Positions 12,231 to 30,564 of a stretch of 64,000 bases of DNA are shown here, piece by piece; the stretch's first letter is position 1, and every line of letters starts with the position of its first letter. The notes beneath the pieces were generated by a model, which saw only the letters and a program-made list of their open reading frames with translations, was not told the DNA's origin and ran no database searches. The stretch is from Myxococcales bacterium (GTDB lineage Bacteria; Myxococcota; B64-G9). A program made the position numbers and the translations under genes. The stretch covers positions 62,001 through 126,000 of the forward strand of contig JAAZNF010000084.1 of assembly GCA_012798435.1 (NCBI GenBank), in the 5' to 3' direction.

Positions 12231-13433
12231 CTAGAGCGCCGCCTGGAGCCCCAGGAGCACGCCGTTGTCGTCCAGGTCGGGAAAGTAGATCTTGGCCGTC
12301 CGGCGCAGGATGACGTTGAGCTGAACCCGGATGTACTCGCGAAAGGAGTAACCCAGGCCGAAGGTCCAGGTCTCCTGGTGGGAAAACGGACCCACCTCGT
12401 CGGCACGCGCGTTGTACTGCTCGAAGCGCACCCCCAGCTCGAGCCCGTGCCGGCCCAGGGGTTCCCCGCCCAGCGCCCAGGCCAGAAGCCGATCCAGGCG
12501 CCACAGCAAGCGCGCCTCCCAGCCGTCGAAGACGTAGTCGTCCTTCCCGTTGTCGTCCCAGTCTTCCAGGATGGCACCGGCGCCGTACAGGAGGTGCAGG
12601 CGCAGGCCCGGTGCCTCCCAGCGAACGGCCAGATCGGCCGAGCCGGTGACGCGGTGGAGGTCCATCACCACCCGCCCGCTCTTGAACAGCACGTCATCGT
12701 GGCGGTTCCAGCTCGCGTGCGCCCCCAGGGAGATCACGCCGGGCCAGGGCTCCACCGTGAGCCGCGCGCCGTAGAAGAACTGCGCGCCGTTGGTGAGGAT
12801 GAACTCCTTGGCGCTCACCCCGCCGATGAACAGGTTGGCCCCCAGGCCGTTGCCGACCATGGCGAACAGGCGGACCGGGCGCCCGAGCGGCTCGGCCTCG
12901 AATTTCAACCCCAGGCCCAGGTCGCGGAGCTGCGAGCGGTTGCCATAGAACAGCGAGGAGGCGTAGGTGGTGCGCGACAGGGCGTAGTCGGCCAGGGCCG
13001 TGGAGAGATCGCTGCGGAGCAAGAAATCCAGCCGGCTATCCTCCTCCAGCGCCTCCCAGGAGGAAGGGATCTTGAACTGCCCGGCGCGGATCTCGAGGCA
13101 GGACCAGGGTCGGACGGCCAGGTAGAGGTCGAGGACCTGGATGGGCTCCTCCAGCTTGAGCTGAAAGGCCACCCGCATGAGCCGGTCGAGGAAATCCCAG
13201 TGCAGGCCCACTCGAACGCGGTTGATCCGAAAACCAGCGGTATTGTCGGTGGCCTCGTCGCCGCTGGGTTGCTGGACCTGGCCCTGGGCGTCCTCCATCT
13301 GCTCGAAGACCGTGAGCCAGGTCTGGAAGTAGCCGAAGACCGTGAGATCCGGGCTCACCTCGTAAGCCGCGATCGGCGGAGCGAGAAGGACCAGCAGCCC
13401 CAGCGCGGCGAACAGCGGCGGGATGCGGTTCAC
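12231..13433 (-). CDS. Outer-membrane porin (phosphate-selective porin O/P-like)
   Basis: Signal peptide 'ALGLLVLLAPPIAAYE'; many aromatic beta-strands ending 'REYIRVQLNVILRRTAK'; GTG start 1 nt after the upstream gene stop. Confidence 0.7.
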   Translation of the reverse strand: MNRIPPLFAALGLLVLLAPPIAAYEVSPDLTVFGYFQTWLTVFEQMEDAQGQVQQPSGDEATDNTAGFRINRVRVGLHWDFLDRLMRVAFQLKLEEPIQVLDLYLAVRPWSCLEIRAGQFKIPSSWEALEEDSRLDFLLRSDLSTALADYALSRTTYASSLFYGNRSQLRDLGLGLKFEAEPLGRPVRLFAMVGNGLGANLFIGGVSAKEFILTNGAQFFYGARLTVEPWPGVISLGAHASWNRHDDVLFKSGRVVMDLHRVTGSADLAVRWEAPGLRLHLLYGAGAILEDWDDNGKDDYVFDGWEARLLWRLDRLLAWALGGEPLGRHGLELGVRFEQYNARADEVGPFSHQETWTFGLGYSFREYIRVQLNVILRRTAKIYFPDLDDNGVLLGLQAAL

Positions 13434-13434
13434 G

Positions 13435-14646
13435 TCACGGTTTCTCGATGCCGTATCCGTACAGGAGCACGGTGGAGTTGGCGATGTAGGCCCAGCCGCC
13501 GTTCTTGGCGTCGAAGTCCTCCACGCCGGCCGGCAGCGGGTTGATGCGGATGGCGATCACCCCGCGCACCATGTCGCCGGCGTTGTGATCCTTGGCCTGG
13601 TCGTAGTCATAGCTGTCGCCGCAGGTGGGTTGGGGGTACTGCGAGCCGCGATCCGGCGCGCCCGGGGTGCTCTGGGGCACGATGATGCGATACGGGCCCT
13701 CGCCGTTGATCTTGCCGGAGGTGGGATCGAGGCTGGAGGGATCGATGGCCAGGCCGTCGCGCTCGTAAGCCAGCATCAGCCACTGCTCGCCCGGGATGGG
13801 CTGGCCGTCGACGACTCCGGCGGGGAGCTGGTCCGGGTACTGCACGAAACCGCAGGGGTTGGGCAAGGTGGCCGTGTCCAGGCCGCCGTAGAAGACGCCC
13901 GCGGGGTAGGCGGAGTTGATCTTCGCGACCGGGAAGTCCTTCATGAACCCGTCGGGGGCGATGACGGTGACGCCGGTCAGGTTGGGATCGGTCGGGTCGA
14001 CGCCGGCGGCCGTGAGCAGGTCCTTCACCTTCACGCCCTTGTAGGTGGCGTAGAAGTCGTACTGCTGCTTGCTGGCGTTCGCCAGCATGAACTCCTGGTG
14101 GGCCGTCAGGGCCTTGAGCTGCTCCATGGTGAAGGCCTTGACGGTGGGGTTCTTCTGGCCGGGCTTGGAGGCGGCGTCGCCCGGGTACTTGAGGTCGGCG
14201 ATCTCGGCCTGGTTGTCGTAGCCGTCGCCGTCGCTGTCCTTGCTCTTGATGCCGCCGAACGCCTTCTGGCTGCGGCCCGCCGCGGCGTAGTCCTTGCCGA
14301 AGGGGTTCAGGGTCTCCGCGTAGGTGGTCGGCTGGGGCTCGTTGAACCCGGTGGCGTCGGGGTGCTGGATGAGGTGGCAGTAGTCGCAGGCGTTCTTGTT
14401 CACGGTCTTTTGACCGGTGCCGCTGCCGGTGGTGAAGGCGAAGCCGGTATGGCAGGTCTGGCAGTCGTCAAGTCGCGTACCCAGCGTCTTCTTGAAGGCG
14501 TTGACGAAGGCGTTCATGTCGAGGTCGTTCTCGTGGCCCTTGTAGGCCCGCGAGGAAACGACGGCCTCCGAGCCTCCGCCGCAGCCGATCGGCGCGACCA
14601 GGGTGAAACCGAGGAGCAGCAGGCTGACAATGCGGGTGTGCGGCAT
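13435..14646 (-). CDS. GEGP-motif diheme cytochrome c-type lipoprotein
   Basis: Lipobox 'LVAPIGC'; two CxxCH motifs (CQTCH, CDYCH); 'GEGPYRIIVPQ'. Confidence 0.85.
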   Translation of the reverse strand: MPHTRIVSLLLLGFTLVAPIGCGGGSEAVVSSRAYKGHENDLDMNAFVNAFKKTLGTRLDDCQTCHTGFAFTTGSGTGQKTVNKNACDYCHLIQHPDATGFNEPQPTTYAETLNPFGKDYAAAGRSQKAFGGIKSKDSDGDGYDNQAEIADLKYPGDAASKPGQKNPTVKAFTMEQLKALTAHQEFMLANASKQQYDFYATYKGVKVKDLLTAAGVDPTDPNLTGVTVIAPDGFMKDFPVAKINSAYPAGVFYGGLDTATLPNPCGFVQYPDQLPAGVVDGQPIPGEQWLMLAYERDGLAIDPSSLDPTSGKINGEGPYRIIVPQSTPGAPDRGSQYPQPTCGDSYDYDQAKDHNAGDMVRGVIAIRINPLPAGVEDFDAKNGGWAYIANSTVLLYGYGIEKP

Positions 14647-14670: not shown

Positions 14671-15549
14671 TCAGGCAACCAGTTTTCCGGTGTCGGCGAA
14701 GGTGTATCCCGGCGCTTCCGGTTTGCGCCCGCTCAAGAGCCACTCCAGGAGGCGCTGAAGAAAGAGCGCCAGGTGAGGGTGCCCCATGGCTCCCGTCGGA
14801 GCGGCCAGCCAGAACCGTTCCCGCTCGAGCGGGACGAACTCCAGATCGCACAACTCGGCGGCCACGCGGATGCCCAGGCCGCAATCCGCCTGGCCGCGGG
14901 CCACCGAGAGCGCCGTCTCCAGGTGGGAATGGAACGGGCCCAGCGATCGGAGATCCGAGAGCGCAAGGCCCCGCGCCGCCAGAAGCCGGTCGGTCAGGGC
15001 GTGCGTCCCCGAGCCTGGCTGGCGCAGGGCGAAGCGTAGCCCCCCGCGGACGACATCGTGTAGCGAGCGCACCTGTCGCCTGCGAGACCGCGGCAGCAGC
15101 AGGCCCTGTTCGCGGGAAAAGAGCTCGATACGCTGGACGGTGCCATCGCGCGCGTCGAGCAGCGATACCGGGGAGGGCAGGTGGAAACAAGCCAAATGGG
15201 CCCGGTTCTGGCTCAGGGCGTCCAGCCCGGCCCGGCTTCCCACGCGGGCGGCGACCGCGGCCACCGGCAAATCGGGGCGCAGGTCCTCGATGGCGCGATC
15301 GAGAAGCCAGTCGTCGCTGCCCTGCAGGATGATCACCGAGTCGAGGAGGTCGAACAACTGCATGCCCCGCGGGCGGCGGGTACGGCCATCCAGGAAGTCT
15401 CGGAGTATGTTCTCGCTAAAGAGCCACTTTCCCCCGAGCCGGGCGGCCGGGATCTCGCCCTGCGCGGCCAGGACGTAGACCTTCTTCGGGTTGATGCGCA
15501 GGATGCGGGCCGCCTCGGCGGCGGTGAGGTATCTGGCCTTGGCGCTCAT
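14671..15549 (-). CDS. Helix-turn-helix (excisionase-type) regulator with periplasmic-binding-protein-like domain
   Basis: 'YLTAAEAARILRINPKKVYVLAAQGEIPAARLGGKWLF' HTH; C-term PBP-like 'RFALRQPGSGTHALTDRLL', 'GQADCGLGIRVAAE'. Confidence 0.85.
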   Translation of the reverse strand: MSAKARYLTAAEAARILRINPKKVYVLAAQGEIPAARLGGKWLFSENILRDFLDGRTRRPRGMQLFDLLDSVIILQGSDDWLLDRAIEDLRPDLPVAAVAARVGSRAGLDALSQNRAHLACFHLPSPVSLLDARDGTVQRIELFSREQGLLLPRSRRRQVRSLHDVVRGGLRFALRQPGSGTHALTDRLLAARGLALSDLRSLGPFHSHLETALSVARGQADCGLGIRVAAELCDLEFVPLERERFWLAAPTGAMGHPHLALFLQRLLEWLLSGRKPEAPGYTFADTGKLVA

Positions 15550-15626
15550 GGGCTGAAGATAACAAGCCCCGCCTTCTATGCAAGGAAAAAAATGACAAAT
15601 AGTTACAAAAAATGACTTCCTGTGCC

Positions 15627-16352
15627 TTATGGGGCATGCCGGCGAGCGGTGTGGATGCAGGCGGCGCCGCCGAGCAGGGGCCGGATTTTCACTTCGGAGA
15701 ATCCGGCTCCTTCGAGCATTCGGGCGGCGGATTCCGAGTCGAGGAACCCGCGCGCCGAGCGGCCCAGGTATTCGTAGTCCGCCGGGGTCTTGCTGATGGC
15801 ACCTCCCAGGGGAACGGCCAGGAGGCGCAGGTAGGCGTGGACCGCGAAGCGGAAGGCGCGGGAGCGCGGCTGGCTGGTCTCGACGAGGCACAGCCGCCCG
15901 CCGGGCGCGCACACCCGCCGGATCTCGGAAAGATGCCGCTCCCAGCGCGGGTTCTGGTAGACGAGGTTGCGAAAGGCGAACGCGATGCCGATGGCGCCGA
16001 AGCGGCCATCGGGGAAGGGGAGTTCGGCCGCGTCGGCCTCGATGAAGGCGATCCGATCCCGGAGCCCGCGGCGCACCGCCTTGTCTCGGGCGCGCTCCAG
16101 CATGTCGGGACAGAAGTCGGCGGCCATGATCTCCGTCTCGGGCCCGGCCCGTCGCGCAAGCTCGATTGTCAGATCTCCGGTCCCGGCGCACAGGTCGAGG
16201 ACGCGCCTCGGAGAGCCGGTCAGGATCTCGCGGGCGAGGAGCCTGCGCCAGCGTCGATCGATCCCGAGGGAGAGCAAGCGGTTGAGCCGGTCGTAGGTCG
16301 GCGCCACGCGGCAGAACATCTCCCGCAGCGGATGTTCAGCGTTCTCGCTCAT
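15627..16352 (-). CDS. ubiE: Ubiquinone/menaquinone biosynthesis C-methyltransferase
   Basis: 'MFCRVAPTYDRLNRLLSLGIDRRWRR', 'VLDLCAGTGDLTIELAR', 'AFAFRNLVYQNP'. Confidence 0.95.
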   Translation of the reverse strand: MSENAEHPLREMFCRVAPTYDRLNRLLSLGIDRRWRRLLAREILTGSPRRVLDLCAGTGDLTIELARRAGPETEIMAADFCPDMLERARDKAVRRGLRDRIAFIEADAAELPFPDGRFGAIGIAFAFRNLVYQNPRWERHLSEIRRVCAPGGRLCLVETSQPRSRAFRFAVHAYLRLLAVPLGGAISKTPADYEYLGRSARGFLDSESAARMLEGAGFSEVKIRPLLGGAACIHTARRHAP

Positions 16353-16389: not shown

Positions 16390-17949
16390 TCACGGGCCCT
16401 CCCTCTCTGCTCTGGGCACCAGCGTCCGGCAGGCCGCGCGCTTGCCGTTGTGCGCGCAGTACTTGGCGGCGACGTCCTCCGCCTGGATGCCGCTGAAGGG
16501 GTAGCGGTTGTTGGCGAACCAGGTGGGGCTGGCCTGGATGCCGAGCAGGGCGCACAGCCGGGCGTCCTCGCGGAGCAAGCGCTCCCCCTCGGCCCCGTCG
16601 GCGCAGGACCCTAGCGTGGTCGGGTTCAGGCCAGCTTCGGTGGCGCAGGGCTCCCACACCGGGTCGCGGGGATTGCGCATCCGGCAGCCCACGTAGGCCA
16701 GCGATTTTTTCGGGGTGTTCTTCTGCACGCAGGCCATGCGGCGGTTCTCGGCGAGCTCCTCGGATCCGTGGAGCGAGTTCATCTGCCCGTTTTCGAAGCC
16801 GACCACGAAGTGGAACCTGACCTCCCTGAGGCCGGTGGCCTTCATCAGCTCGGGCAGGACCTGGACCGCCCTGGCGGCGAAGGGGCACTGGGACATGAGG
16901 AACAGCCGCAACTCGCCGGGTTTCTCAAGACGGCAGGATATCGATTCCTTGCAGGCCGGATCCCGGCAGTCGGCCCTTCCGTCCCCGGTGTCGTCGATGC
17001 CGTTGTCGCAGATCTCGGCGGTGGGATCGAACTTCGAGCCGGTCGCCAGCACCCGGTAGTCCCCGTGCGCCTTCAGCTGGTCCCACACGGGGGAGGTCGA
17101 CTCCCTGGCCAGCGCGTCCACGGACGCGTCCAGCACCACCGCCGGAAGCAGCGGCTTACCCGCCGCGACGTGCAGCGCCTTGCCGGCCGGGTCGAGGTAG
17201 TCCAGCTCCGTCAAGTCCAGGTTCTCGAAGGTGCGATTCAGGAACGCCTGCCAGTGCCGAGCCTGGCAGGTGGCGCAGCGTCTGTCCGAGAGGATCACCG
17301 CCCGCACCCGGGGGATGGGCGGCAGATCCTGGCACACCGGGGCTCGAAGGTCGCCGGCTGCGCAGATCTTCATGAGCAGGCTGTCGCGGCTGCGGTTGCC
17401 CTGGTACTTCTCGCCCCCGATGAACAGGGTGGGGGATCCTCGCACCCCGCGCGCCGACGCCTCCCGGTAGGACTCGCGCAGCAGTTGCTGGCCCTCGCCG
17501 CTGTCCGCGCAGGTGCGCACCGCGCTCACGTCCACCCCGACCGCCGCCGCGCAGCTCTCCCAGCCCTCGGGGATGGCCCGCAGGTTCCTGCCCATGCACC
17601 GCATGAAACCGGGCAGGGCGTTGCCAAACAGCCGCTGCACGCAGATCTCCAGGAGGTTGCCTGCCACCTCGCTCTCGCCGTGCATGGCCGACAGTCTCCC
17701 CTCGACCTCGGTCCCCACGAACCCGACGCGGAAGTCGACATGGTCCCGGAGGTCCTCCAGAAGCGGCCCCAGCTCCTCCATGATCTGGGCGCAGTAGGGG
17801 CACTTGGACATCACGTACAGCTCTACGCTCACCTTCGCGCCCGGCTGCGGCGGGGCCTCGACCGGCGCGGCGGGTGTACCCGCGAGGGGGGCAAGAAGCG
17901 CTCCCGTCCAGAGCGTGAAGAGGCTCGAGGCAAGAATCAGATTCGTCAT
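16390..17949 (-). CDS. Secreted tandem thioredoxin-fold protein: GILT-like (CPYC) - thioredoxin-like (CATC) - MopE-like linker - GILT-like (CPFA)
   Basis: 'ELYVMSKCPYCAQIM...AMHGESEVAGNLLEICVQR...CADSGEGQQLL'; 'CDNGIDDTGDGRADCRDPAC'; 'LFLMSQCPFAARAV...SLHGSEELAENRRMACVQKN'; paralog at 22378-23934. Confidence 0.8.
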   Translation of the reverse strand: MTNLILASSLFTLWTGALLAPLAGTPAAPVEAPPQPGAKVSVELYVMSKCPYCAQIMEELGPLLEDLRDHVDFRVGFVGTEVEGRLSAMHGESEVAGNLLEICVQRLFGNALPGFMRCMGRNLRAIPEGWESCAAAVGVDVSAVRTCADSGEGQQLLRESYREASARGVRGSPTLFIGGEKYQGNRSRDSLLMKICAAGDLRAPVCQDLPPIPRVRAVILSDRRCATCQARHWQAFLNRTFENLDLTELDYLDPAGKALHVAAGKPLLPAVVLDASVDALARESTSPVWDQLKAHGDYRVLATGSKFDPTAEICDNGIDDTGDGRADCRDPACKESISCRLEKPGELRLFLMSQCPFAARAVQVLPELMKATGLREVRFHFVVGFENGQMNSLHGSEELAENRRMACVQKNTPKKSLAYVGCRMRNPRDPVWEPCATEAGLNPTTLGSCADGAEGERLLREDARLCALLGIQASPTWFANNRYPFSGIQAEDVAAKYCAHNGKRAACRTLVPRAEREGP

Positions 17950-18065: not shown

Positions 18066-18974
18066 TCAGGGGTCGCGGGCGCCCGCGTTCTGGCGCACGA
18101 ACCGGACCCAGGCCTCCCGGTACTCGTTCCCGCCCGCTTCCGGGATGTCGTTGTGATGGCAGTCGAGCTCGAAAAAGCGCTTCTTTCCAGCCAGGGCGGC
18201 AAAGACCTTCTTCCCGAGCTCGAACGGAACCACCTCGTCGCGCCGTCCGTGAACCACCAGCGCCGGGGAGCGGACCCGGGAAGCCTTTTTTTCGTTTTCG
18301 AAGCGCGAGCGAAGGAGGAGCGAGGTGGGCAGCCAGGGGAACACCGCCGCCGCCTCCTCGCGCATGCTGGAAAACGGCGCCTCCAGGATTATCGCCGCGG
18401 GTGGATCCGTGACGGCGAGATCCAGCGCGACCGCGCATCCCAACGACTCGCCAAAGTAGACGAGCTTCCTCGTGTCCACCTCGGGCCGCGCGCGAAGGTA
18501 CGCGAGCGCCGCCCGTGCGTCCCGGTACAACCCCTCCTCGTCCGGCGCGCCCTCGCTCTTGCCGTAGCCGCGGTAGCCGACGAGCAGCATTCCCAGCCCC
18601 GCTTCCTGCGCCTCCTTCATGCGGCCGCCGCGATGGGAGAGGTTGCCGGCGTTGCCGTGGAAGAAGATGATGGTCGGTTCGTTCGGCCGGGAAGGCGAGA
18701 ACCAGCTTGTAAGGCGCAGCCCGTCCTCGGCGAGATAGGACACCTCCTCGATACCCGCCAGCCCGAAGTACGCCGGCTCCATCATCTCGGATTCGGGGTG
18801 GAAGATGAGCCTGTTTTGGAGAAGGTAGAGGAGTCCCATGAAAAGCACCAGGGCGATGACGACGCTTCGCGCCGCCCGGAGCGGGAGCGGCCAGCGCGCA
18901 CGGCGAACGGTCGGGCTCGGGGCGGATTCCGGCACGAGCGATGTGTACCAGACCCAGGCCCTGGGTGCAATCAC
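18066..18974 (-). CDS. Membrane-anchored alpha/beta hydrolase (BEM46/ABHD13-like)
   Basis: 'IIFFHGNAGNLSHRG', 'VYFGESLGCAVALDLA', 'ALVVHGRRDEVVPFELG'; N-terminal TM segment. Confidence 0.9.
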   Translation of the reverse strand: MIAPRAWVWYTSLVPESAPSPTVRRARWPLPLRAARSVVIALVLFMGLLYLLQNRLIFHPESEMMEPAYFGLAGIEEVSYLAEDGLRLTSWFSPSRPNEPTIIFFHGNAGNLSHRGGRMKEAQEAGLGMLLVGYRGYGKSEGAPDEEGLYRDARAALAYLRARPEVDTRKLVYFGESLGCAVALDLAVTDPPAAIILEAPFSSMREEAAAVFPWLPTSLLLRSRFENEKKASRVRSPALVVHGRRDEVVPFELGKKVFAALAGKKRFFELDCHHNDIPEAGGNEYREAWVRFVRQNAGARDP

Positions 18975-22377: not shown

Positions 22378-23934
22378 TCAGGGGTTCTCTCTCTCCACTT
22401 TGGGCACGAACGCCCGGCAGGCCGCCCGCTTTTGGTTGTGCGCGCAATACTTGGTGATGACGTCCTGCGCCTGGATGCCATTGAAGGGGTAACGGTTGTT
22501 GGCGAACCAGGTGGGGCTGGCCTGGATGCCCAGCTGAGAACCGAGCTTGGCGTCCTCGCGGAGCAGGCGCTCCCCCTCGGCCCCGTCGGCGCAGGACGCC
22601 ACCGTGACCGAGTTCAGGCCTGCTTCCGTGGCGCAGGGTTCCCAGACAGGATCGCGGGGATTGCGCATCCGGCAGCTCGCGTAGGCCAGCGATTTTGCCG
22701 GGGTGTTCTTCTGCACGCAGGCCATGCGGCGGTCTTCGGCGAGTTCCTCGGGCCCATGGAGCGAGCGCATCTGCCCGTCATGATCCACGCTGACCACGAA
22801 GTGCAACCTGACTTCCCTGACGCCGGTGGCCTTCAATACCTCCGGCAGGGTCTCCATCGCCCTGGCGGCGAAGGGGCACTGGGACATGAGGAACAGCGAA
22901 AGCTCGCCGGGCTTCTCGGGGCGGCAAGATATCGAATTCCTACAGGTAGGATCCCGGCAGTCCGCTTTTCGGTCTCCGTTGTCGTCGATGCCGTTGTCGC
23001 AGATCTCGGCGGTGGGGTCGAACTTCGAGCCCATCGCCAGCACCCGGTAGTTCCCCTGCTCCTGGAGCCGGTCCTTGAAGGGAAAGGTCGACCCTTTGGC
23101 GAAGGCGTCCACGGACGCGTCCAGCACCACCGCCGGGAGCAGCGGCTTGCCGGCCGCGGTATGCAGCGCCTTGCCGTCCGGGTCGCCGTAGTCCAGCTCC
23201 GTCAGGTCCAGGTTCTCGAAGGTGCGCTCCAGCAAGGACCGCCAGTACCCAGCCCGGCAGTCGGCGCAGCGCCTGTCCGAGAGGATCACCGCGCGCACGC
23301 GGGGGATGGGCGCCAGATCCTGGCACTGCGGGGCCCGGGAGGCGCCGGCCCCGCAGATCTTGCGGAGCAGGCTGTCCCGGCTACGGTTGCCCTGGTACTG
23401 GACACCCCCGATGAACAAGGTCGGGGAGCCGCGCACCATGCGCGCCGACGACTCCCGGTAGGAGTCGCGCAGCAGGCGCCAGCCCTCGTCGCCGCCCGCG
23501 CAGTCGCGCACCGCCTTCACGTCCGCCCCGGCCGCCGTCGCACAGCTCTCCCAGCCCTCGGGGATGGCGCGCAGGTTCCTGCCCATGCAGCGCAGGAAGC
23601 TGGGCAGGGCGTGGCCGTGCAGCCGCTGCATGCAGATTTCCAGGAGGTTGCCAGCCACCTCGGTCTCACCGTGCATGGCCGACAGTTTCCCCTCGACCTC
23701 GCTTCCTACGAAGCCGACGCGGAAGTCGACATGATCCCTCAGGTCCTCCAGGAGCGGTCCCAACTCCTCCATGAGCTGGGCGCAGTACGGGCACTTGGAC
23801 ATCACGTAGAGCTCCACGCTCACCTTCGCGGTTGGCGGTGCCTCGACCGGCACTGAGGGTGTTTCCGCGAATGGGCCGGAGAGCACCCCTACCCAGAGTG
23901 TCAGGAGAACCGAGCCGAGGATCGGATTCAGCAT
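22378..23934 (-). CDS. Paralog of 16390-17949: secreted tandem GILT-like/thioredoxin-like/GILT-like protein
   Basis: 'ELYVMSKCPYCAQLM', 'MHGETEVAGNLLEICMQR', 'CDNGIDDNGDRKADCRDPTC', 'LFLMSQCPFAARAM'; high identity to the first copy throughout. Confidence 0.8.
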   Translation of the reverse strand: MLNPILGSVLLTLWVGVLSGPFAETPSVPVEAPPTAKVSVELYVMSKCPYCAQLMEELGPLLEDLRDHVDFRVGFVGSEVEGKLSAMHGETEVAGNLLEICMQRLHGHALPSFLRCMGRNLRAIPEGWESCATAAGADVKAVRDCAGGDEGWRLLRDSYRESSARMVRGSPTLFIGGVQYQGNRSRDSLLRKICGAGASRAPQCQDLAPIPRVRAVILSDRRCADCRAGYWRSLLERTFENLDLTELDYGDPDGKALHTAAGKPLLPAVVLDASVDAFAKGSTFPFKDRLQEQGNYRVLAMGSKFDPTAEICDNGIDDNGDRKADCRDPTCRNSISCRPEKPGELSLFLMSQCPFAARAMETLPEVLKATGVREVRLHFVVSVDHDGQMRSLHGPEELAEDRRMACVQKNTPAKSLAYASCRMRNPRDPVWEPCATEAGLNSVTVASCADGAEGERLLREDAKLGSQLGIQASPTWFANNRYPFNGIQAQDVITKYCAHNQKRAACRAFVPKVERENP

Positions 23935-24172
23935 AAGGGCTCCTTTCAGGAACAACTCGTGAGGGTAGTGGTCGGGCCGTTCCATTTCAAGTCGTGCCAC
24001 CTCATGGAAGATACTGGAGGAAAACGGTCCGAACCAGTCCGTTGCTTTTCTTTCACAAGGGGGGCTCGCCGTGGGCGGTGGTGCTTGTGCCCGCAGGACT
24101 CGTTGTGGTAGTAAAACGATATCCGCGTTGTATGGATTGGTTGGAGTGATTTCTCAGGCAGTGTCGAGGTGT

Positions 24173-27594: not shown

Positions 27595-30564
27595 ATGACC
27601 TCGGCCTTGCGCATCCAGAAGTTCAACCAGCTCATGCAGCGGCGCATCCGCAACGTGCTGCTGGTGTCCACCCCCTACGACGCTTTCGTCATCCAGGAGG
27701 AGGGCAACCTCACCGAGCAGATCTTCCTGGAGTACAAGGCCCTGAGCCTCTCCAGCGCCCCGCACGTGACCCATTGTCCCACCGAGGAGGAAGCCCTCGG
27801 GCGCCTGTTGCAAGAACGCTTCGACCTGGTGCTGCGGGTGACCCGGGTGGCCGACACCGACCTGGCCGAGTTCGGGCGGCGGGTGAAGGAGCGGCAGCCG
27901 GACCTGCCTGTGGTGGTGCTGGGGTTCGACCACGCCGAGATGACCCGGTTGCGGGAGCTGGTGAGCCGCGAGGCGGTGGACAAGATCTACCTGTGGAGCG
28001 GGGACGCCAAGATCCTTCTCGTGATCATCAAGGAGCTGGAGGACCGGCTGAACGCCGACCGCGACATCGCCGTGGCCGATCTGCGGGTGATCGTGGTGGT
28101 CGAGGACTCCATCCGCTACTACTCGGCCTTCCTGTCGGTGCTCTTCCCCGAGCTGATGAAACAGTCGCAGTCGCTGTTCTCCGAGGGTTCCAACCGGCTG
28201 GACCGCCTGCTGCGCATGCGCACCCGGCCCAAGGTGCTCCACGCCACCACCTTCGAGGAGGCCACCGCCCTCTACGAGAAGTACCGCGACAACCTGCTGG
28301 CGCTCATCAGCGACGTGGGTTTCCCCCACGGCGGCGCGCTGGACGTCGAGGCCGGGCTCAAGCTGGCGGGTCGAATCCGCGCCGAGATCCCCGATCTACC
28401 CATCGTGTTGCAGTCGGCCGAGGAGCGCTTCGCCGGGCCGGCGCGAGCGTTGGGCCTCTTCGTCAACAAGAACTCGCCCTCGCTGCTTTCGGAGGTGCGG
28501 CAGTTCCTCACCGACTACCTGGGCTTCGGGGCCTTCGTGTTCCGCCTGCCCAGCGGCGAGGAGGTGGCCCGGGCGGCGGACCTGCGCGAGCTGGAACAAT
28601 GCATCGCCTGCGTGCCCGCGGAGTCGCTGCGCTACCACACCAGCCGCAACCACGTCTCCAACTGGCTGCTGGCCCGCAGCGAGTTCGACCTGGCGGCGAA
28701 GCTGCGGCCGCGCAAGGTCAGCGACTTCGCCTCCATCGAGGAGGTGCGCCGCTACCTGATCGAGGAACTGTCGCACCTGCGCCGCACCGAGAACGCCGGG
28801 ACCATCACCGACTTCTCGGCGCGGGCCTTCGACCGCGAGAGCCTGTTCCAGCGCGTCGGCGAGGGTTCGCTGGGGGGCAAGGCCCGGGGGCTGGCCTTCC
28901 TCAACCACCTGCTCACGGTGCAAGCCGAGGACGGGCGCCTGGCCGGTCTGCGGGTGTGCCTGCCCCAGACCTTCGTGCTCACCACCGACATCTTCGACGC
29001 CTTCCTGCAGGAGAACCGGCTGATGCCGGCGGAACTGCTCGAGCTCTCGGACGCGGAGATCCTGGCGCGCTTCGAACGGGCGACCCTGAACCCCGGAGTG
29101 CGCCGTAGCCTGGAGGTCATGCTGGAGAACCTCGCGGGCCCGCTGGCGGTGCGCTCCTCATCGCTGCTCGAAGACGACATGCTCCACCCGCTGGCAGGGA
29201 TCTACGAGACGGTGATGATCCCCAACAACGACCCCGATCCCGGGGCGCGGCGGTTGGATCTGGAGCGTGCCGTGCGCCGGGTGTTCGCCTCGACCTTCCT
29301 GCGCAACTCGCGCGCCTACCTGACCCAGTTCGGCAGCCGCCCCGAAGAAGAGAAGATGGCGGTCATCGTGCAGTCTCTGGTGGGACAGCGCTTCGGTGGG
29401 CGCTTCTACCCGCACCTGTCGGGCGTGGCCCAGAGCTACAACTACTACCCGCTGCCGCCGCTCAAGTCCGAGGACGGGGTGGTGCTGCTGGCGCTGGGGT
29501 TGGGGCGCACCGTGGTGGAGGGCGGCGACTGCCTGCGCTTCTGCCCGCGCTACCCGGCCATGCTGCCGCAGTTCGCCACGCCGCAGCAGACCCTGGAGCA
29601 CGCCCAGCAGAGCTTCTACGCGCTGGATCTCGGGCGTAGCCGGGTGGAGCCCGCCCTGGAGCTCAAGGACGCGGTGGTGCGCTACGATCTCGACGCCGCC
29701 CTGGAGGACGGCACCCTGCCGCTCCTGGCCAGCCGCTACGACGCCGAGAACGACGTCATCCAGGAGGGCCTGGGTGGCGACGGGCCGTGGGTGCTCACCT
29801 TCCACAACCTGCTCAAGCACGGCTCGGTGCCGCTGGCACCGGCGTTGACCCGGCTCATCGAGCTCACCGCGCGAGGCCTGGGTACGCCGGTGGAGTTGGA
29901 GTTCGCGTGCGACCTCGGCGATGTGGGGCGTCGATTGCCGGCGGGGGCGCCGCGGCGCGAGCCGGTCCTGTACGCCTTGCAGGTGCGGCCCTTCATGGCC
30001 CGCGAGATGGTGAAGGAGCTCTCCGGCCGGCCGCTGTCGGTGGCCCGGGTGGTGTGCCGCTCGCGGCGCGCGCTGGGGTACGGGCGGCGCCAGCTTGGCG
30101 ACGTGGTGTACGTGAAACCCGCCGCCTTCCAGCCGGCGCACAGCCCGCGCATCGCCCGCGAAGTGGCGCAGCTCAACGAGCGCCTGCTGGCCGAGAAACG
30201 CTCCTACGTGTTGATCGGTCCCGGGCGGTGGGGCTCCTCCGACCCCTGGCTGGGCATCCCGGTGCAGTGGGCCGACATCAGCGGCGCCCAGATCATCGTG
30301 GAGGCCTCTCCCGAGGGCTACAACATCGATCCTTCTCAGGGTACGCACTTCTTCCACAACCTCACCTCCATGCGGCTGGGCTACCTGACCATCCCGCCGG
30401 GGGCGCGGGCGGGGCGCGACGAGGAGTACGTGGACTGGGCTTGGCTGGACGCTGCGCCGGCATACGCCGAGACCGAGCATCTGCGCCTGGTGCGGCTCGC
30501 GGAAGGCCTGGTCGCCGAGCTGGACGGTCGGCACGGCACCGGCCTGCTGGCCGTGCCGGGGTGA
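27595..30564 (+). CDS. PEP/pyruvate-binding domain protein (PPDK/PpsA N-domain) with N-terminal receiver-like region
   Basis: 'GSLGGKARGLAFLNHLL', 'AVRSSSLLEDDMLHPLAGIYETV', 'LIGPGRWGSSDPWLGIPVQWADI'. Confidence 0.88.
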   Translation: MTSALRIQKFNQLMQRRIRNVLLVSTPYDAFVIQEEGNLTEQIFLEYKALSLSSAPHVTHCPTEEEALGRLLQERFDLVLRVTRVADTDLAEFGRRVKERQPDLPVVVLGFDHAEMTRLRELVSREAVDKIYLWSGDAKILLVIIKELEDRLNADRDIAVADLRVIVVVEDSIRYYSAFLSVLFPELMKQSQSLFSEGSNRLDRLLRMRTRPKVLHATTFEEATALYEKYRDNLLALISDVGFPHGGALDVEAGLKLAGRIRAEIPDLPIVLQSAEERFAGPARALGLFVNKNSPSLLSEVRQFLTDYLGFGAFVFRLPSGEEVARAADLRELEQCIACVPAESLRYHTSRNHVSNWLLARSEFDLAAKLRPRKVSDFASIEEVRRYLIEELSHLRRTENAGTITDFSARAFDRESLFQRVGEGSLGGKARGLAFLNHLLTVQAEDGRLAGLRVCLPQTFVLTTDIFDAFLQENRLMPAELLELSDAEILARFERATLNPGVRRSLEVMLENLAGPLAVRSSSLLEDDMLHPLAGIYETVMIPNNDPDPGARRLDLERAVRRVFASTFLRNSRAYLTQFGSRPEEEKMAVIVQSLVGQRFGGRFYPHLSGVAQSYNYYPLPPLKSEDGVVLLALGLGRTVVEGGDCLRFCPRYPAMLPQFATPQQTLEHAQQSFYALDLGRSRVEPALELKDAVVRYDLDAALEDGTLPLLASRYDAENDVIQEGLGGDGPWVLTFHNLLKHGSVPLAPALTRLIELTARGLGTPVELEFACDLGDVGRRLPAGAPRREPVLYALQVRPFMAREMVKELSGRPLSVARVVCRSRRALGYGRRQLGDVVYVKPAAFQPAHSPRIAREVAQLNERLLAEKRSYVLIGPGRWGSSDPWLGIPVQWADISGAQIIVEASPEGYNIDPSQGTHFFHNLTSMRLGYLTIPPGARAGRDEEYVDWAWLDAAPAYAETEHLRLVRLAEGLVAELDGRHGTGLLAVPG

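Follow-up and report, generated by a model that had tools for sequence, protein, structure and literature searches.

Two genes in the window, a 64,000-nucleotide stretch of DNA from a Myxococcales bacterium, encode members of a prokaryotic and apparently undescribed protein family related to GILT, the lysosomal enzyme by which animals cleave disulfide bonds. The gene of interest, P0001 (16390..17949, minus strand), encodes an exported three-module GILT-like thiol-redox protein of 519 amino acids, as recognized from its open reading frame (ORF), Pfam matches, an AlphaFold2 (AF2) model and Foldseek. An initial annotation of this gene had seen its essence in the pairing of a CxxC head with a CxxA tail. 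Beyond that annotation, we describe an entire family of prokaryotic proteins whose usual active-site plan is another one, and in which the window pair is derived, tail-less and devoid of a lipid anchor. Computation establishes the fold, homology, architecture, distribution and nucleophilic-Cys conservation of the family, the fold assignment being close to certain. A redox role is likely, with the activity, partners and substrates being those that we infer below.

Architecture and fold of P0001

The ORF lies at exactly the proposed position, on the minus strand (the strand had not been given before), and an AAAGGAG ribosome-binding site (Shine-Dalgarno) stands just 5' of its ATG. All of the landmarks previously quoted from its translation are found, namely CPYC (aa 50-53), HGESEVAGNLLEIC, RCM, WESC, CADSGEGQQLL, SPTLF, CATC (aa 225-228), CDNGIDDTGDGRADCRDPAC and CPFA (aa 355-358). 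The N-terminus is hydrophobic and is predicted from sequence to be an export signal or anchor (17842..17949, minus strand, as are all P0001 features below), in keeping with the extracytoplasmic location that had been proposed. Unlike most bacterial homologs, it has no lipobox Cys, and its n-region contains no basic residue.

Three modules follow. Module 1 is a GILT-like domain (aa 40-208; 17326..17832) that is matched by PF03227 at aa 42-135 and, in a profile comparison, by mouse GILT (6NWX, 5.8e-9); its active site, by sequence and family alignment, is CPYC (17791..17802), where the family norm is CP[YF]G. Module 2 is a thioredoxin-type unit (aa 212-302; 17044..17316) whose profile matches Pyrococcus protein disulfide oxidoreductase (PDO; 1J08, 1.3e-6; 1A8L, 3.4e-6), and the thioredoxin-like middle unit with CATC (17266..17277) that had been described is supported as a dithiol unit. 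The MopE-type segment reported between the modules corresponds to an acidic double-disulfide segment (16930..17016), detected by NF033662 with an E-value of 5.6e-7 at a score under the curated cut-off (29.2 bits vs 41). This model matches 42/74 family members at E<=0.001; several Myxococcales, as well as Micrarchaeota, lack the segment or have a shorter one. Several further proteins encoded in the P0001 genome also match this part of P0001 (aa ~299-343; L004-L009 on G000 C83, C35, C87, C38 and C100). Module 3 is a second GILT-like domain (aa 345-508; 16426..16917; profile vs mouse GILT, 1.3e-7) with a CPFA active site (16876..16887; family norm CP[YF]G) whose nucleophilic Cys is present in 81/81 homologs. 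Modules 1 and 3 align with each other (hhalign E 4e-65, 29% identity) and are one domain that was internally duplicated.

Pfam, PDB-profile and Foldseek searches all place GILT first. Against Pfam, P0001 matches GILT (PF03227) in two stretches with an E-value of 2.4e-19 (70 bits vs a gathering cut-off of 22.4), ahead of DSBA (PF01323; E 2.2e-14, 54.1 bits vs a cut-off of 25.6). PF03227 also matches 74/74 aligned homologs, and it found no match in 14 well-known control genomes; ordinary DsbA proteins thus do not trigger the profile, and the P0001 match is not a generic DsbA signal. A whole-family profile searched against the Protein Data Bank (PDB) retrieves GILT (5.8e-9, through its module 1 part) and archaeal PDO (6.5e-7), with no DsbA at E<=0.01, while single-module profiles lead from module 2 to PDO and from module 3 to GILT first. 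The AF2 model of P0001, built with 74 relatives (pLDDT 92.3, pTM 0.81), displays thioredoxin-like strand and helix patterns in three blocks, and its top Foldseek match in the PDB is mouse GILT 6NWX (E 2.3e-8, TM-score 0.79 on the target). Sequence profile and fold therefore agree with the two GILT-like outer modules first noticed in the sequence. The model of a tail-bearing member, L048, likewise returns mouse GILT as its top match (pLDDT 93.5, TM-score 0.77).

The proteins share with GILT/IFI30 (PF03227; 6NWX) a thioredoxin fold with a helical insert, an HGxxEx2-3[ND]x4C core and a cis-Pro-type loop, and the six structural Cys of module 1, conserved in 81/81 homologs, all align with Cys of mouse GILT. 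The GILT signature is given as CQHGX2ECX2NX4C (PMC7017176). This signature occurs in 0/81 homologs in module 1 and 0/81 in module 3, with the two signature Cys of CQHGx2EC being absent; the reduced form is found in 72/81 and 75/81, respectively. The resemblance to GILT that had been noted thus stands as kinship and fails as formal identity: lacking the animal signature, the family is related to GILT but is not GILT proper. The family further differs in carrying two GILT-like copies and a PDO-like unit per chain, in usually having CPxG instead of CxxC, and in being prokaryotic, lipid- or membrane-anchored and Cys-tailed.

Other known systems fit less well. Module 2 aligns with the N-terminal CxxC unit of archaeal PDO (1A8L, 1J08); PDO, however, comprises two tandem units of its own kind, whereas P0001 has one such unit between GILT-like modules, and we rejected assignment to PDO because only module 2 matches and tandem PDO units are lacking. 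The DsbA group, including BdbD and Staphylococcus aureus DsbA, shares the fold class, scores over the PF01323 cut-off and ranks high in Foldseek, but it is weaker than GILT in every comparison; in addition, the outer modules of most family members lack CxxC, and the family has extra conserved Cys. Partial likeness to the Rcas_1661 thioredoxin-like (seleno)lipoprotein (NF041057) lies around the second half of a GILT-like module in 56/74 members, and assignment to it was rejected at 34.6 bits vs an equivalog cut-off of 190.

Gene copies and genomic surroundings

The window contains a paralog, P0002 (22378..23934, minus strand), which was not part of the initial annotation. It encodes 518 aa from an ATG at 23934 with AAAGGAG upstream, a longer frame being available from a GTG at 24000, and has the active sites CPYC (23782-23793), CADC (23257-23268) and CPFA (22867-22878), all on the minus strand. 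The two proteins are 79% identical and their genes lie 4.4 kb apart; the duplicated segment, with 85% DNA identity across 1.5 kb, does not reach beyond the gene. A Ka of about 0.13 against a Ks of about 0.32 indicates purifying selection on the pair. A third copy in the genome, L003 (G000:C124; 38% identical), is a lipoprotein with CPFG, CKDC and CPFG in modules 1-3 and the C-terminus PAPACGQ.

A UbiE/MenG-type methyltransferase gene (15627..16352, minus strand; PF01209, 1.1e-50) begins 37 bp downstream of P0001 and is probably co-transcribed with it, and an alpha/beta hydrolase gene (18066..18974, minus strand; PF12146, 1.3e-13) lies upstream on the same strand; neither has a known functional link to P0001. 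Downstream of the methyltransferase gene, window positions 14671-15588 encode a regulator-like fusion of HTH_17 and a PBP-like domain (PF12728 + PF12727). The gene at 13435-14646 encodes a putative secreted protein with CxxCH motifs and a weak cytochrome c7 match (PF14522), and it adjoins a phosphate-selective-porin-like gene (12231-13433). Elsewhere in the window, 27595-30564 encodes a protein of 989 aa that contains a PPDK N-terminal ATP-binding domain and weakly matches a response regulator.

Active sites across the family

Among 81 homologs ranging from Bacteria to Archaea, C50, C228 and C355 of P0001 are invariant and C225 is Cys in 80, and the CxxC of module 2 is near-universal in the family. 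The outer modules follow another pattern. Module 1 reads CPYG or CPFG in 121/140 non-redundant full-length relatives and the module 3 motif ends in Gly in 126/140, which does not support the CxxC-head, CxxA-tail arrangement as the defining property of these proteins. A conserved SPT (cis-Pro-type) motif accompanies the CP[YF]x sites of the outer modules. With CPxG as the usual state, the window copies (CPYC, CATC or CADC, CPFA) are exceptional: the CXXC (CXXC/S) site typical of GILT occurs in module 1 of P0001 and P0002 and module 3 has CPFA. Elsewhere in the family, module 3 of L187 reads CPYC, and module 1 of L074, L188 and L242 reads CPHC. The window copies sit on a long branch of the family tree, and their CPYC/CPFA state and loss of the lipobox and tail Cys are derived features of a fast-evolving paralog pair. 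A frameshifted relative, L072, was excluded. Selenocysteine at the active sites was rejected for the homolog ORFs taken from the genome scan, which are open across these positions; because the scan patterns required Cys in part, Sec forms may occur elsewhere.

A C-terminal tail associated with the module 3 motif

Nearly all members, bacterial and archaeal, end with a Gly-rich stretch that has a Cys in its last few residues (GGCG, GSC, ACGK). This tail Cys is found in 124/125 members with Gly at the fourth position of the module 3 motif, compared with 5/14 of those with another residue (Fisher 5e-10, relatedness ignored; L054, whose ORF runs off its contig, is left out of the counts). All but one of the tail-less members lack the module 3 Gly, the exception being L244 (CPFG, no tail); in L187, the tail is absent and module 3 is CPYC. 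The tail Cys is kept despite CPFA in module 3 in one clade (L074, L188, L241, L242), and likewise in L016 (CPFT). Independent contrasts on the tree gave five concordant, no opposite and one tied case (p 0.06). The tail hypothesis arose from an initial set of 81 sequences, and in the 61 held-out sequences used for testing the association was weaker (p 0.016); the tail Cys was present in 22/22 held-out full-length archaeal proteins.

The fact that tail loss mostly accompanies loss of the module 3 Gly, once with a return to CPYC, suggests that the tail Cys may be a displaced resolving Cys, standing in for the missing second active-site Cys. Within the DsbA superfamily, a precedent exists in FrnE of Deinococcus radiodurans: this DsbA-type reductase has a CX4C tail at its C-terminus that has been proposed to regenerate the CP(W/F)C active site (PMC8945050). 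FrnE differs in being cytoplasmic and in adding a CX4C tail to an intact CxxC, whereas the present family has one tail Cys and a CPxG site, and its window copies are tail-less; for this reason assignment to FrnE was rejected. AF2 predicts the tail to be disordered (pLDDT 39), so docking of the tail is not predicted, and static docking was rejected on the same ground. P0001 and P0002 have neither tail nor lipid anchor, and without a tail their mechanism must differ from that of core members.

Shortened relatives (L114, L115, L118, L154-L156) consist of module 2 and module 3 only, and those read out keep the C-terminal tail Cys, L115 also having a lipobox-like Cys. Their retention of this residue suggests that the minimal functional unit is made up of modules 2 and 3 together with the tail. 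One tail-less member (L013:2487-4682), with the sites CPFA and CPYA, is fused to a family 3 solute-binding domain (SBP_bac_3, E 1.9e-13).

Distribution and candidate partners

A scan of species-representative genomes yielded 169 relatives, the best 80 of which cover essentially the whole architecture. These 80 come from Myxococcota/'Deltaproteobacteria' metagenome-assembled genomes (MAGs), a few other bacteria and, among archaea, Woesearchaeota, Micrarchaeota, Altiarchaeota, Diapherotrites and Nanoarchaeota. The family occurs in 21/197 genomes of the window's phylum, among them 8/9 sampled genomes of the window's own family, in 46/197 genomes of one DPANN phylum (many with the full architecture, some with one or two modules), and in 35/378 genomes of another phylum containing relatives. 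Two-module (module 2 + 3) and one-module versions exist. In the tree, a branch with full support separates the bacterial from the archaeal sequences. Contamination of MAGs was rejected as an origin of the archaeal copies because 46/197 genomes of the DPANN phylum carry the family and 17 archaeal sequences group together on one side of the tree with support. The family is not described in the literature found by searches on Rcas_1661, the CPYG motif, GILT in prokaryotes, DsbA with a resolving tail, and DPANN/VKOR; no family model or paper was found that describes the whole architecture, in agreement with the earlier view of it as undescribed.

Family searches detected two VKOR and three DsbD_TM proteins encoded in the same genome. 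Among 117 immediate neighbors of relatives scanned against Pfam, no partner gene recurred, and guilt by association from gene neighborhood was rejected accordingly.

Proposed mechanism and alternatives

On balance, we slightly favor the explanation that P0001 and P0002 are secreted, fast-evolving paralogs within a prokaryotic family of envelope thiol-disulfide exchange proteins. The plan of this family is a GILT-like module 1 followed by a PDO-type dithiol module 2, in most cases a spacer with an acidic double disulfide, and a GILT-like module 3; core members add a C-terminal tail that is flexible and rich in Gly and has one Cys near its end. Under this proposal, module 2 would use its CxxC to trade electrons with a redox partner in the membrane, either DsbD/CcdA or VKOR, each of which the genome encodes. 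Substrate disulfides would be attacked or held by the outer modules through one exposed Cys (CPxG). The mixed disulfide would then be resolved by the tail Cys, which, for module 3 at least, would take the place of the CxxC Cys that is missing. The window copies would have been rewired, with module 1 regaining a dithiol site (CPYC), module 3 turning to CPFA, and the tail and lipid anchor lost; given these changes, they would act as soluble oxidoreductase or isomerase variants beside the lipid-anchored core copy L003.

These proteins might instead be disulfide holdases or cargo binders, whose GILT-like modules mainly bind Cys-containing clients and leave module 2 as the only redox-active part. 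The outer modules are indeed monothiol in nearly all members. Comparison with plant vacuolar sorting receptors (VSRs) is also apt: the VSR TRX domain has a GILT-like fold, its model (PF25011, VSR_TRX) gives weak matches in 46/74 members, VSR1 is the third Foldseek match for L048, and VSRs are themselves cargo receptors. VSRs differ in being eukaryotic receptors with PA and EGF-like domains (PMC11052993). The 81/81 invariance of the outer nucleophilic Cys, its CP[YF]x context and the conserved SPT argue for chemistry, and CxxC does occur in some lineages, either in module 1 or in module 3, so that we judge a pure binding role unlikely. A function in extracytoplasmic metal or copper handling, of the ScsC or Sco kind, seems very doubtful. 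Caulobacter ScsC is among the lower-ranked Foldseek matches, and soft metals could be bound by the single outer Cys and by a Cys carried on a mobile tail; however, the best match is GILT and not ScsC, the conserved columns show no His/Met/Cys metal-site pattern beyond Cys, and no metal genes recur in the neighborhoods, where two P-type ATPases are the only such neighbors.

A further alternative concerns VKOR. The family and VKOR are nearly mutually exclusive in the DPANN sample, where 6 of 197 genomes have both, 40 have the family alone and 92 have VKOR alone (Fisher 7e-9, a statistic that ignores kinship between genomes). The family might thus stand in for a VKOR-based disulfide-forming pathway in DPANN and serve as an accessory isomerase or reductase in Myxococcota. 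Against this, the Myxococcota exhibit no association (18/21 vs 128/176, p 0.29), and we find the substitution improbable, less so than metal handling. VKOR as an obligate partner was rejected, since the two are unassociated in Myxococcota and inversely associated in DPANN. We can also envisage a broader version of the favored explanation, in which an undescribed and widespread prokaryotic branch of the GILT superfamily would have moved its resolving Cys to a flexible C-terminal arm (CPxG ... GGCG) that feeds a three-module cell-surface thiol relay and replaces VKOR-dependent disulfide formation in DPANN, the window pair having lost the arm and regained a module 1 CxxC. This combination is speculative and unlikely to hold as a whole.

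Implications

A 2008 study stated that GILT had no known prokaryotic homologs (PMC2398784). GILT now has a multi-module branch across Bacteria and DPANN archaea, which offers comparative material on where the fold of eukaryotic GILT and the vacuolar sorting receptors may come from. The association between the tail and the active site provides a concrete and cheap handle on a possibly relocated resolving Cys. In DPANN, where the family and VKOR occur in complementary sets of genomes, the pattern points to an undescribed route of disulfide chemistry in microbes that resist cultivation. The P0001 family is therefore a new lead on extracellular disulfide handling in uncultured myxobacteria-related bacteria and tiny archaea.
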